11,620 nucleotides of DNA from an uncultured Phascolarctobacterium sp. (GTDB lineage: Bacteria > Bacillota > Negativicutes > Acidaminococcales > Acidaminococcaceae), in assembly GCA_949287345.1 (NCBI GenBank), contig CASEGD010000015.1:1-11620 (forward strand), written 5' to 3'. Shown piece after piece: positions 734-8,701 of this stretch. How positions within the stretch are numbered: the stretch's first letter is position 1; each line of letters starts with the position of its first letter. Below the pieces are notes generated by a model. That model searched no databases and was not told the DNA's origin. It saw only the letters and a list, made by a program, of their open reading frames with translations. A program made the position numbers and the translations under genes.

Positions 734-995
734 GCAGCTCAGGTCTGTGGTTGCAAGTCGATGCCAGTTGCGGGCAAAACGATCCACGTAAGCAGTTAAA
801 ATTGACTGTGAGCACGGCGCAGCTTAGAGGTAAGTCCTGCCGCGAAAAGCGAGAGGGGTAGTAGTGGGGAGCGCAAGGCTTAGGAGCGAACCCTCCGGCA
901 GGCGGGTGTGGGGGCGAAGACCAGGTCAGCTGAGTTGCTTTAATTTATAAAAATTAGCCCTTTTTGCATATTTTTACTTGTGCAGAAGGGCTTTT
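734..995 (+). ncRNA. Structured non-coding RNA, about 205 nt plus terminator; family not identified (raiA motif is a candidate)
   Basis: There is no credible reading frame here, but the sequence folds well. GCAGCTCAG (734-742) pairs with CTGAGTTGC (930-938) as a 9-bp closing helix (with one G-U pair and one A-U in place of G-C), continued by GTCT (743-746) with AGAC (918-921). Inside are a hairpin closed by GTGG/CCAC (747-750 with 784-787), a hairpin CAGTT/GACTG (793-797 with 804-808), and a helix CCTGCCG/CGGCAGG (836-842 with 896-902) followed directly by GAGGG/CCCTC (853-857 with 891-895). A consensus promoter places the 5' end at the helix, and a Rho-independent terminator follows. I do not see the conserved elements of RNase P, tmRNA, SRP RNA, a T-box or cobalamin and lysine riboswitches. 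The branched fold argues against 6S RNA, which is a rod. In Firmicutes the raiA-motif RNA is of similar size and often sits near raiA/hpf, and an hpf gene lies 3.4 kb downstream. This identity is an inference and I could not match its consensus from memory. Confidence 0.72.
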
Positions 996-1954: not shown

Positions 1955-2734
1955 ATGAAAAAATTATTAGTGTTTATGATGGCTGCACTGATGCTTGTGG
2001 CTTTAGCGGTTACCGGCTGCGGCGGCGAAGAAAAGAAAGCCGCGGAAGCTCCGGAAAAGGTTCTGCGCGTTGCTACCGAACCGACCTTTGCTCCGTTTGA
2101 GTTCCAGGAAGAAGGCAGCGATAAGCTATCCGGCTTCGATATGGATTTAATCCGTGCTATCGGCGCTAAAATGGGCTATAAAGTAGAAATTGCCAACATG
2201 GGCTTTGATGCTCTTATCCCGGCGCTGAACACCGGCAACATTGACGTTGCCATTGCCGGCATGAGCATTACCGACGAAAGAAAACAGGCTGTAGGCATGT
2301 CCGACCCGTACTATACTTCCGGCCTTATCGTTATGGTTCAGAAAGACAACAACGATATCAAGAGCATTGAAGATTTGAAGGGCAAACGCATTGCCGCACA
2401 AATCGGCACCACCGGCGCTGCTAAAGCACACAGCGTTGAAGGCGCAGTTGTTACCGAATTCAACACCAACACCGAATCCGCTATGGAACTGACCAACGGC
2501 GGCGTTGACGCAGTTATCAACGACAGCCCGGTTATCGGTTATTATCTGGCACAGGGCGGCAGCGAAGTTGCCAAAACCGTTGGCGACGTTATGGAAGCTG
2601 AACAGTATGGCATTGCCGTTAAAAAAGACAACACCAAACTGCTTGAGGACATTAACAAAGCCCTTGCTGAGCTGAAAAAAGACGGCGAATACGACAAGAT
2701 TTACAAAACCTGGTTCGGTGAAGTGAAGAAATAA
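1955..2734 (+). CDS. glnH: Polar amino acid (glutamine-type) ABC transporter substrate-binding lipoprotein, copy 2
   Basis: This 259-residue family 3 binding protein is a paralogue of the preceding gene. Its signal peptide is nearly the same, with lipobox VTGC and Cys22 as the lipid anchor. It has the same ordered motifs: ATEPTFAPFE, GFDMDLIRAIG, AGMSITDERK, SDPYYTSG, IAAQIGTTGA and VINDSPV. The ligand-contacting Arg and Asp positions are kept, while nearby residues differ (for example FSDPYYKSG against MSDPYYTSG). The two copies may therefore differ in affinity or ligand. The ATG at 1955 is preferred because GGAGG (1942-1946) lies 8 bases upstream. The in-frame ATGs at 1934 and 1949 have no well-spaced ribosome site and would extend the signal peptide. 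The permease and ATPase follow on the same strand, after a hairpin that could reduce their expression relative to this gene. Confidence 0.9.
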   Translation: MKKLLVFMMAALMLVALAVTGCGGEEKKAAEAPEKVLRVATEPTFAPFEFQEEGSDKLSGFDMDLIRAIGAKMGYKVEIANMGFDALIPALNTGNIDVAIAGMSITDERKQAVGMSDPYYTSGLIVMVQKDNNDIKSIEDLKGKRIAAQIGTTGAAKAHSVEGAVVTEFNTNTESAMELTNGGVDAVINDSPVIGYYLAQGGSEVAKTVGDVMEAEQYGIAVKKDNTKLLEDINKALAELKKDGEYDKIYKTWFGEVKK

Positions 2735-2827: not shown

Positions 2828-3484
2828 ATGGAATTGAATTTTGAACTTATTCAGGGCGCTATACCGCTTTTGCTGGCAGGCGCGGGCATTACGCTGGAAA
2901 TTACAGCCATGAGCGTGGGCTTCGGCCTTCTGATTGGCATGATTATCGGCGTGGCGCGCCTTGCAAGCGTTAAACCGGTGCGTTATGCTGCCAATTTTTA
3001 TGTAGATTTTATTCGCGGTACGCCGCTTCTGGTACAAATCTTTCTGGTTTATTTTGCGCTGCCGACGATTATCGGCCAGCGTATTGACCCGTTTTTTGCG
3101 GCAATCTGCGCGTGCTCCATCAACAGCGGCGCTTACATTGCCGAAATTTTCCGCGCAGGCATCCAGTCTATCGACAAGGGCCAGATGGAAGCGGGCCGTT
3201 CGCTGGGCATGACCTGGTACCAGACGATGCGCTATGTTATCATGCCGCAGGCATTTAAGCGCATTATTCCGCCGCTCGGCAACGAATTTATCGCCATGCT
3301 GAAGGATTCCTCGCTGGTTTCCGTTATCGGCTTTGAAGAACTGACAAGGCGCGGTCAGCTGATTATTGCCCGCACCTACGCTTCTTTTGAAATCTGGCTG
3401 GCGGTTGCCGTAATTTACCTTATTATGACCTTTACGGTTGCACGCCTTGTTGGGCTGATGGAGCGGAGGTTTGACACGAAATGA
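2828..3484 (+). CDS. glnP: Polar amino acid ABC transporter permease
   Basis: This 218-residue membrane subunit forms the amino acid channel and couples to the ATPase. It belongs to the HisM/GlnP type of binding-protein-dependent permeases. Hydrophobic segments are seen at about residues 12-42, 65-82, 88-108, 155-170 and 188-208. The motif [13 protein letters not shown] near 61-73 and the EAA loop (E121-A122, G127, P140) are characteristic; the EAA loop is where the ATPase docks. Length is normal for a single-domain permease of this family. An AAGGA site is centred about 13 bases before the ATG, slightly far. The stop TGA overlaps the next gene's ATG (ATGA at 3481-3484), which implies translational coupling with the ATPase. 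Confidence 0.95.
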
Positions 3485-4212
3485 CGACTGAAATGATTAA
3501 AATTACCGGGCTGAAGAAAAATTACGGCAGCCTTGAAGTTTTAAAGGGCATTGACCTGACGATTGCCGAAAAGGAAGTAGTGGTAATCATCGGCCCCAGC
3601 GGCAGCGGCAAAAGTACGCTGCTGCGCTGCATGAACTACCTTGAAGAACCTACCGAAGGCACGATTGTTGTGGACGGCATTAAGCTGGACGGCGAAGCCA
3701 ATATCAACGAAGTGCGCAAGGAAGTAGGCATGGTATTCCAGCGTTTTAACCTGTTCCCACACATGACTGTTCTGGACAACCTTGTGCTTGCGCCGATGAA
3801 GGTACGCGGCATCAGCCGTAAGGACGCCGAAGCTACCGCGATGGAGCTGTTGGGCAAGGTAGGCCTTTCTGATAAGGCGTCTTCCTACCCCGACCAGTTA
3901 AGCGGCGGCCAGCAGCAGCGTGTTGCCATTGCCCGCGCGCTGGCGATGAAGCCGAAAGCACTTTTGTTTGACGAACCGACCTCTGCGCTTGACCCGGAAA
4001 TGATTAAAGAAGTGCTGGACGTTATGAAAACGCTGGCCAACGAAGGCATGACGATGGTTGTCGTTACGCACGAAATGGGCTTTGCGCGCGAAGTGGGCGA
4101 CAGGGTGCTGTTTGTTGACGAAGGTAAAATTTTAGAGCAGGGCGCGCCCGACGATATCTTTTTGCATGCTAAGGAAGAACGCACACGCAGCTTCCTCTCC
4201 AAAATTTTATAA
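3481..4212 (+). CDS. glnQ: Polar amino acid ABC transporter ATP-binding protein
   Basis: This 243-residue cytoplasmic ATPase powers the uptake system. All core ABC elements are present: Walker [10 protein letters not shown] (38-46), Q-loop Gln87 in [10 protein letters not shown], signature LSGGQ (140-144), Walker B LLFDEP (161-166), D-loop SALD (168-171) and switch His197 in VTHEMGFA. The spacing and the [12 protein letters not shown] segment are typical of the GlnQ/HisP amino acid subgroup. GGAGG at 3465-3469 lies 11 bases before the ATG, within the end of the permease gene. A second in-frame ATG at 3493 is a possible alternative start. A strong terminator follows, closing the transporter unit. 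Confidence 0.96.
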
Positions 4213-4377: not shown

Positions 4378-4908
4378 ATGAACGTTAACGTAAGAGGAAA
4401 GAACATTGTTGTAACACCGGCGCTCAAAGAGTATGTTGAAAAGAAAATCACGAAAATCACCAGGCAGTTTAAAACCGTTGGCGATATCAGCGCAGTGCTG
4501 AAAGTTGAAAAAGGCAACCACATCGTAGAAATTACCGTTCCTGCCAGCGGCATTTTAATCAGAGCCCAGGAAACCACGAAAGACATGTACTCATCCATTG
4601 ATTTGGTAGTGGAAAAAATCGAACGCCAGGTACATAAATATAAAACACGCCTCGCTAAACGTAAATACAGCAACTTTGTAGAACCGGTACCTGTAACCGA
4701 GGTGGAAGCAGCACCGGATGAAGAATTCAAGATTATCAAGAACAAGAAGTTCTCGATGAACCCGATGACGGCTGAAGAAGCAATCCTGCAAATGAACCTT
4801 CTGGATCATGACTTCTTCGTATACTTCGACCCCGACTATGGCGGAGTAAATGTTGTATACCGCCGCAAAGACGGCAACTATGGCCTGCTTCAGCCGGAAT
4901 TAAAATAA
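4378..4908 (+). CDS. hpf: Long-form ribosome hibernation promoting factor (HPF/RaiA family)
   Basis: This 176-residue protein binds the 30S subunit at the decoding channel and brings two 70S ribosomes together into inactive 100S dimers in stationary phase. The N-terminal HPF/RaiA domain covers about residues 1-97, starting MNVNVRGKNIVVTPALKEYVE and ending in the basic helix with VHKYKTRLAKRK. A variable acidic linker covers about 101-117. The C-terminal dimerisation domain covers about 121-176 and contains FSMNPMTAEEAILQM, FFVYFDPDYG and VVYRRKDGNYGLLQPE. The full two-domain length marks the long form usual in Gram-positive lineages, rather than the short enterobacterial HPF or YfiA. The ribosome site AAGGAGG (4363-4369) is 8 bases before the ATG. 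The gene is monocistronic, with strong terminators on both sides and two leader hairpins. Confidence 0.96.
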   Translation: MNVNVRGKNIVVTPALKEYVEKKITKITRQFKTVGDISAVLKVEKGNHIVEITVPASGILIRAQETTKDMYSSIDLVVEKIERQVHKYKTRLAKRKYSNFVEPVPVTEVEAAPDEEFKIIKNKKFSMNPMTAEEAILQMNLLDHDFFVYFDPDYGGVNVVYRRKDGNYGLLQPELK

Positions 4909-7590: not shown

Positions 7591-8701
7591 TTGGTGCTGA
7601 TAGAGGAATACAAACCGGAAATATCCGCATTAAAGCAAAAATTAGAGGAAATGAGGGGATCTCTTTGACGTCGCTGTCAAAGAGGACCGCATTGCCGAAT
7701 TAGAACATAAAATGGGCGCGCCCGATTTCTGGGACGAGCCGGAAGCCGCGCAGAAAACCGCGCAGGCTGTTACCCAGCTTAAAGCTGAAGTTGAAACCGT
7801 ATATAACCTTGAACAGCGTCTTGACGATCTGGAAGTAATGGTGGAGCTGGCTCTGGAAGAACCGGATTCCGGCATGGAGGACGAACTGGCAAGCGGGCTG
7901 GAAGCTGCCAAAGCCGAGATTGAGCATCTGGAGCTTGGCATGCTGCTTAACGGCGAATACGACGCCAACAACGCCATTTTAACCCTGCACGCAGGTGCGG
8001 GCGGCACGGAAGCACAGGACTGGACGAGCATGCTTTTGCGCATGTTTACCCGTTACGCCGAGCGCGAAGGCTTCCAGATTGAAATGCTGGACTATCTGCC
8101 GGGCGATGAAGCGGGCGTAAAAAGCGCTACGCTGCAAATCAACGGGCACAACGCTTACGGCTATCTGCGCAGCGAAAAGGGCGTACACCGCCTGGTGCGC
8201 ATTTCCCCGTTTGACGCCAACGCACGCCGCCATACATCCTTTGCGGCGGTTGACGTTATGCCGGAGCTGGACGACAGCGTCGATATTAAAATCGACCCGT
8301 CCGATTTGAAGGTTGACACCTACCGTGCCAGCGGTGCGGGCGGCCAGCACGTTAACAAAACAAGCTCCGCCGTGCGCATGACGCATATTCCGACCGGCAT
8401 TATCGTACAATGCCAGAACGAACGCTCGCAGATTCAGAACCGCGAACGCTGCATGCAGCTGTTACGCGCTAAATTATACGAATTTGAACGCGCTAAACAG
8501 GAAGCGCTGAAAAACGATATCGCCGGTGATTATCAGGAAATCGAATGGGGCAGCCAGATCCGCTCCTATGTTTTCCAGCCGTACAAGCTGGTTAAGGACC
8601 ACCGCACCGGCGCGGAAACAGGCAATGTGCAGGCCGTAATGGACGGCGGCATCGACCTGTTTATCGAAGCATATTTACGTTCCCAGCAAAAGAAACTGTA
8701 A
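7591..8701 (+). CDS. prfB: Peptide chain release factor 2, with programmed +1 frameshift
   Basis: RF2 recognises UGA and UAA stop codons and releases the finished peptide. The gene is read as 7591-7665, then +1, then 7667-8701, giving 369 residues. The first part from the TTG at 7591 is 25 codons (VLIEEYKPEIS...EEMRGSL), followed by an in-frame UGA as codon 26. After skipping T7666 the frame continues DVAVKEDRIAELEHK and on through the main body. With this start the stop-recognition tripeptide SPF falls at residues 205-207 and the catalytic GGQ at 250-252, the same numbers as in E. coli RF2. GGQ sits in RASGAGGQHVNKTSSAV. AAGGG near 7578-7582 is spaced 8 bases from TTG 7591; GTG 7594 in the same frame is an alternative. 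A start at the internal ATG 7712 would lose part of the N-terminal helical domain. RF2 controls its own level: low RF2 lets the ribosome shift at the UGA. Confidence 0.96.
7652..7669 (+). promoter_or_regulatory. prfB programmed +1 frameshift site
   Basis: AGGGGATCTCTTTGAC (7654-7669) corresponds to the E. coli site AGGGGGTATCTTTGAC. It has an internal Shine-Dalgarno-like AGGGG, the same 3-base gap, the slippery codon CTT (7663-7665), the in-frame UGA (7666-7668) and a C after the stop, which makes termination weak. The reading frame after the shift is open for 344 codons and is RF2 throughout. Confidence 0.95.

Follow-up and report, generated by a model that had tools for sequence, protein, structure and literature searches.

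Identity and structure of the RNA

The window analysed here is a stretch of 11,620 nucleotides from a 1.46-Mb draft genome (89.7% complete) of an uncultured Phascolarctobacterium sp., and it holds, ahead of a transporter operon, a region with the appearance of a free-standing structured RNA, which raised the questions of which RNA this is and how it might act. An earlier note, made from the letters alone, had guessed at a raiA-motif RNA in a member of the Negativicutes, with an undescribed RNA as the fallback. The cmscan search against Rfam that it proposed matched the raiA RNA model (RF03072) at positions 734-938 of the forward strand with 197.3 bits, relative to a gathering score of 101.3. 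The match spanned model positions 1-209 of 209 (E = 2.2e-51), and RF03072 was the sole Rfam family to reach its gathering score anywhere in the window. Positions 734-938 are the gene of a raiA (ModT) RNA, and the RNA is a typical representative of an already characterised family. The guess was confirmed by this match, by covariation, by an hpf gene at 4378-4908 and by the protein which that gene encodes; the latter is 98-100% identical to five Phascolarctobacterium or Acidaminococcaceae records (L031-L035), which places the host in the Acidaminococcaceae, Negativicutes. The fallback became superfluous. Neither Rfam cmscan nor ARAGORN returned a match to 6S RNA, RNase P, SRP RNA or tmRNA in the window, so that a housekeeping RNA was ruled out and the claimed absence of such signatures was borne out. 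The claim that no protein is encoded also agreed with the list of open reading frames, in which none of at least 60 amino acids lies within 734-979.

The closing helix P1 is formed by positions 734-742 (5' strand) and 930-938 and has the 9 bp that had been claimed for it; amongst members of the Acidaminococcaceae, helix 1 had two-sided changes in 8 of 12 pairs. A pseudoknot of 7 bp joins AGTTGCG (766-772) in the P3 loop to CGCAGCT (818-824) in the pk-loop, and was named pk-1 after PMC11751092, the name being assigned to the strands of the window by position. In the family alignment 98.9% of its cells were paired, with two-sided changes in two of the seven pairs. A second pseudoknot, pk-2, is described in a passage of PMC11751092 as consisting of two pairs. 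The P6-P8 domain occupies 836-902 of the forward strand, comprising the helix 836-840/898-902 and all that lies between, and was delimited by the Rfam match, covariation and comparison with the compact relatives described below. This is the helix that had been read as a stack of seven pairs, CCTGCCG with CGGCAGG; the helix is present, but the Rfam model gives it 5 bp and the adjacent bases are part of a neighbouring stem, for which one of three pairs displayed a two-sided change among relatives.

Covariation was assessed in an alignment of 28 of the 35 raiA RNAs of the Acidaminococcaceae, 27 of them distinct, from which G021 and G031 (long insertions), G034 (truncated) and also G008, G011, G023 and G032 were omitted. 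The structure tested was that of Rfam with two extra P3 pairs, and the aligned sequences are related. Standard pairs occupied 95.0% of cells, versus 30.5-46.6% when the structure was slid by one to three columns, and two-sided changes occurred in 17 of 56 pairs, versus a shuffle mean of 10.3 and 2-8 in the slid structures. The covariation score was 0.232 (shuffle mean 0.119), a value reached by none of 500 shuffles, and thus the helices do covary among homologues. The Rfam pairs in columns 54-82 and 55-81 were unpaired in all 27 sequences, demonstrating that the projected structure is wrong in places. Free energy alone was uninformative and was set aside as evidence for an RNA, given that the folding energy was unremarkable (z = -1.14, with 26 of 200 shuffles as good).

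The RNA was found in 54 of 61 genomes (that of the window and 60 relatives), 52 of the matches being over the cut-off, with one match in each genome. Each of the six genomes in the window's GTDB genus had it, as did 35 of the 37 in the family, although in one of the latter (G034) the contig stops within the RNA; this short match was considered as a compact RNA and rejected as a truncation. The raiA RNA is therefore conserved, in single copy, through most of the Negativicutes examined. An even sample of the phylum yielded 18 matches in 199 genomes, 12 of them over the cut-off.

The family has been characterised as ModT in Clostridioides difficile (PMC11706538), and cryo-EM structures of the C. 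acetobutylicum RNA have been deposited as 9CXF (PMC11751092) and 9ELY (PMC12286853). Passages of PMC11706538 report that in these two clostridia the RNA is trans-acting, as shown by complementation in trans, that it is highly abundant in exponential phase, and that cells need it to enter stationary phase on time. The RNA of the window shares with the clostridial RNAs the full-length match, the helices of the Rfam model, pk-1, a sigma-A-like promoter, a terminator that would yield the long isoform, and an hpf gene downstream. It differs in its surroundings, with an HD-GYP gene immediately upstream and transporter genes between the RNA and hpf, and in its host, which belongs to a GTDB genus without a GGDEF or Spo0A_C match.

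Transcription and the downstream genes

The earlier note had placed a promoter directly ahead of the RNA, and this held. The site, on the forward strand at 700-727, consists of TTGCAA (700-705), a 16-nt spacer and TATAAT (722-727), and agrees with the consensus in 10 of 12 letters. Three promoter-like sites were found in 580-1080, relative to an average of 0.7 in shuffles, which is weak evidence taken alone. A site with at least 9 of 12 consensus letters was found at the same place in 30 of 31 family loci and in 47 of 60 loci overall (these loci being related), versus 5.8% of shuffled upstream sequences. For the terminator, a pattern scan returned one match where shuffles gave 0.8, and is no evidence by itself. 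The claimed terminator was instead supported by the fold of 939-1000 (-18.9 kcal/mol, z = -3.31, one of 200 shuffles as good), which places an intrinsic terminator hairpin and a following T-run at 956-992 of the forward strand, and by the fact that each of the six GTDB-genus genomes has the hairpin. Among the family loci tested, the hairpin was found in 10 of 30, versus two of 30 after one shuffle of each; given that it was seen in just these ten, the RNA may in some relatives be cotranscribed with the next gene.

From these features and the clostridial work, we consider it very probable that the region is a raiA (ModT) gene that operates in the following manner. Sigma-A would produce a transcript that runs as far as the terminator and measures approximately 259 nt, alongside a shorter, 205-nt form that stops at P1; the RNA would adopt the P1-P8 fold together with pk-1, and would act in trans on the growth transition, upstream of whatever outputs the host possesses. 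In the window's GTDB genus this action would proceed without GGDEF-made c-di-GMP and without Spo0A.

Downstream of the RNA, all on the forward strand, lie genes encoding two family 3 solute-binding proteins (1058-1831 and 1955-2734; both PF00497), an ABC transporter permease that is GlnP-like by position and fold family (2828-3484; PF00528), a GlnQ-like ABC transporter ATPase (3481-4212; PF00005) and, 3.4 kb from the RNA, the long hibernation-promoting factor (hpf/raiA; 4378-4908; PF02482 and PF16321), a gene that the earlier note had correctly placed in the neighbourhood. The binding-protein genes at 1058-2734 are a tandem pair belonging to one transporter, and the number of copies ranges from one to three among relatives. 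Further downstream, prfB has an apparent programmed frameshift site (AGGGGATCTCTTTGAC) at 7654-7669, before a long open reading frame at 7712, which we take to be of the type known from the release factor 2 frameshift mechanism.

A total of 60 RNA-bearing loci, 31 from the family and 29 from outside, were compared with the proteins of the window. The gene order in the family was ComFC-like, divergent HD-GYP, raiA RNA, binding protein(s), GlnP, GlnQ, hpf, secA and prfB. The ComFC-like gene was found beyond the HD-GYP gene in five family loci, with the first 70 amino acids of its product matching DZR_2 only below the cut-off, and is absent from the window, whose edge falls within the HD-GYP gene. 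Synteny of the RNA with binding proteins and hpf is already known: periplasmic-binding-protein genes are named downstream of the RNA in a passage of PMC11477304, and Soares et al. 2024, as quoted in PMC11706538, give comFC as a neighbour in 74% and raiA in 66%.

Such synteny, and the typing of RF03072 by Rfam as a cis-regulatory riboswitch, would fit an RNA that serves as a cis-acting, riboswitch-like leader of the transporter operon. GlnP was indeed encoded downstream in 24 of the 30 testable family loci, that of G012 ending too soon. In G010, G019, G023, G025, G027 and G036, however, the downstream genes differ whilst the RNA and the HD-GYP gene stay, and in the GTDB genus the terminator separates the RNA from the operon. 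Taken with the complementation in trans in two clostridia, these observations render the leader very unlikely.

Outside the family the arrangement is such that a cis role would be allowed. In 19 of the 29 loci, the RNA is followed at 34-67 nt by the start of a zf_Tbcl-like protein (MxFxDK.L.C..CG), of which one was scanned and proved to be PF13451, with the gene mostly preceded by a GTGAGGG-type ribosome-binding sequence; no such gene follows the RNA in any of the 31 family loci. The RNA lies close upstream of this gene in, for instance, L101, L102, L106 and L107. Judged from the sequence of these loci, the raiA RNA and the zf_Tbcl-like mRNA may form one transcript.

Hosts without GGDEF matches and the HD-GYP neighbour

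A six-frame HMM search for GGDEF (PF00990) returned no match in the six genomes of the window's GTDB genus, including G001 (100% complete; taken as strain ET69) and G003 (98%), and PilZ was likewise without a match in these six. Spo0A_C had no match in 41 genomes of the order, the same six included. Across the family, the six-frame search found no GGDEF match in 22 of 37 genomes, six of these 22 being less than 90% complete; G014, whose only match had an E value of 9.8e-4, was counted as possessing GGDEF. An absence across the whole genus Phascolarctobacterium was rejected, as P. faecium falls into another GTDB genus and has GGDEF matches (16 in G006, taken as P. faecium DSM 14760). The absence of GGDEF thus holds for the GTDB genus of the window (six genomes) and not for all Phascolarctobacterium, and the GGDEF-less G001 together with G006 offers a natural comparison pair.

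The RNA was present in 21 of the 22 GGDEF-less family genomes, missing from G029 and cut by a contig end in G034. In the phylum sample it was found in five of 12 GGDEF-less and 13 of 187 GGDEF-bearing genomes, a comparison that is uncontrolled but shows that the raiA RNA can do without GGDEF. These results bear upon a role suggested for C. difficile, namely that the RNA works by setting c-di-GMP levels. A passage of PMC11706538 reports that deletion of the RNA raises c-di-GMP in that organism, with dccA up-regulated; moreover, the divergent neighbour in the Acidaminococcaceae is an HD-GYP gene and some members of the family have many GGDEF proteins. Nonetheless, with neither GGDEF nor PilZ matched in any of the six genomes of the GTDB genus, and with the RNA kept in so many GGDEF-less hosts, we regard this role as extremely unlikely. 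The retention of the RNA without GGDEF or Spo0A matches argues against either c-di-GMP or sporulation as its core function, and c-di-GMP and Spo0A are most likely downstream, species-specific outputs. It has been argued in PMC11706538 that non-sporulating hosts imply a more basic role for the RNA, and the GGDEF-less hosts extend that argument.

The HD-GYP domain protein (PF13487, E = 2.5e-41) is encoded at 3-587 on the reverse strand, divergently from the RNA, with its C-terminus cut by the contig end. A divergent HD-GYP gene adjoins the RNA in all 35 Acidaminococcaceae genomes that have the RNA (the 31 compared loci, together with G008, G011, G032 and G034 by coordinates); none of the 29 non-family loci has it next to the RNA. 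As the family genomes are related, the 35 instances represent one inherited and retained arrangement and not 35 independent events.

The H, HD, H and HH residues did not vary across the 31 family copies, one of which is that of the window. The lysine of HDxGK was retained in two of the 31, and 20 have Asn for Asp in the subsequent A-D-x-x-D motif; considering the roles that these residues have in HD-GYP enzymes, activity is uncertain. The closest solved relatives by sequence were 5z7c, a 3'3'-cGAMP-specific phosphodiesterase and the best of them, 4r8z, a cyclic di-GMP phosphodiesterase, and 4mcw, a metal-dependent phosphohydrolase, along with three others. The neighbour shares with these phosphodiesterases the HD_5 domain, the H/HD/H/HH residues and GYP-type motifs, and differs in its mostly replaced HDxGK lysine, in often having ANxxD in place of ADxxD, and in its length of approximately 200 amino acids. 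Exactly one HD_5 gene was found in 21 of the 22 GGDEF-less family genomes, G017 having three.

The constancy of this neighbour could mean that the RNA and the HD-GYP protein work as one unit: the RNA might be bound by the protein, or might sense or control a nucleotide signal for which the protein is the hydrolase. The gene stays adjacent and divergent also where the downstream genes differ, the single HD_5 gene of most GGDEF-less genomes is this kind of protein, its H, HD, H and HH residues have been kept throughout, and its best solved relative is specific for 3'3'-cGAMP. The pairing is confined to one family, however, and may be inherited synteny, and the substitutions described above leave activity in doubt; a joint unit is accordingly rather unlikely. 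Among possible molecular partners of the RNA in the Acidaminococcaceae, the strongest candidate is the protein encoded by the divergent HD-GYP gene. No published account of this neighbour was found in the literature covered, which was open-access with few subscription papers, and the words HD-GYP, Negativicutes and zinc are absent from the main text of PMC11706538.

Compact raiA RNAs

Six matches in the phylum sample (G091, G157, G182, G247, G205 and G227) fell below the cut-off, at 42.3-57.0 bits, and covered the whole raiA model in 113-120 nt. A covariance model (R1) built from these six found a single copy each in 19 of the order's 22 genomes, which represent eight of its 11 genera, 13 of the copies being new and all measuring 110-121 nt. 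The compact RNAs belong to two families of one order (f55 and f100), and the seven copies scored with the Rfam model were all below its cut-off. They are located at L109 6089-6201 (reverse strand), L110 6065-6177 (reverse), L113 5986-6105 (forward) and L114 5982-6100 (reverse), and in L129-L147, upstream of a zf_Tbcl-like gene whose start lies just downstream in all 19 copies.

The compact and full-length RNAs have in common P1, the GGTCTGTGGTTGAAAGTCGA and ACCAGGTCAG strands, P3 and pk-1. The compact RNAs differ in their length, in having lost P6, P7 and P8 as well as the conserved strand that precedes the 3' core, and in a helix, CCCTC/GAGGG or CCCAG with CTGGG or TTGGG, that closes the P5/pk-1 part and was not seen in the full-length RNA; a P5-like hairpin, as read by eye, has been kept. 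The compact RNAs were segmented by hand, and the pair counts that follow come from related sequences without a shuffle control. Each of the three positions of P3 was paired in all 19 copies, as were four invariant pairs of pk-1, the next two being present in 14 and 13. Of the nine positions of outer P1, positions 2 and 5-9 paired in all 19 copies, position 1 in eight, position 3 in 10 and position 4 in none. In the helix closing P5/pk-1, pairs 1-3 were invariant, pair 4 was UA in eight and AU in 11, pair 5 was CG in eight, GU in nine and GC in two, and a sixth pair was present in 13 of 19.

The same class contains, outside that order, full-length RNAs in G272, G273 and G274 (167.5-182.1 bits), each with a zf_Tbcl-like gene downstream. 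R1 also matched these three over 103-118 nt; they were rejected as compact, being full-length RNAs matched in part. A binding protein, GlnP and GlnQ also follow in G261 (compact) and G274 (full-length). With full-length RNAs and similar neighbours in the same class, the compact form is most simply explained if the same gene became shortened within a single order. No published account of a compact raiA RNA was found in the literature covered (open-access, with few subscription papers).

Since the compact relatives keep P1, P3 and pk-1 along with a P5-like hairpin, the core of the RNA is, on sequence comparison, most likely P1, P3 and pk-1. The purine-rich stretches at 858-870 and 880-890, which the earlier note had picked out as loops of conserved function, were highly conserved in the family, yet they sit in the domain missing from the compact RNAs. 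In so widely conserved an RNA, the half-size form suggests which part of the solved structure is indispensable, and that P6-P8 is dispensable. Relatives of the window thus offer three handles on raiA/ModT function, these being RNA-bearing hosts without GGDEF and Spo0A matches, a protein neighbour constant in one family and a half-size version. A proposal drawing on all three, which we advance as speculative and hold with low confidence, is that the raiA RNA is a c-di-GMP-independent P1-P3-pk-1 module; in the Acidaminococcaceae the HD-GYP protein would be its partner, through another nucleotide signal or through binding of the RNA, and in the other order the 110-121-nt module would suffice.

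A 105-nt raiA match in G047, a member of the Negativicutes (L116 6007-6111, reverse strand), has another internal deletion, from P3 onward, and was for this reason rejected as a member of the compact group; it is either a degenerate copy or an assembly fault, a single oddity in one draft genome. A cspA match below the cut-off lies near this RNA at L116 2876-3257 (reverse). In G273, a c-di-GMP-I riboswitch (56.2 bits) and a cspA-type element below the cut-off were found near the raiA RNA, at L150 1997-2089 (reverse) and 2107-2522 (forward).
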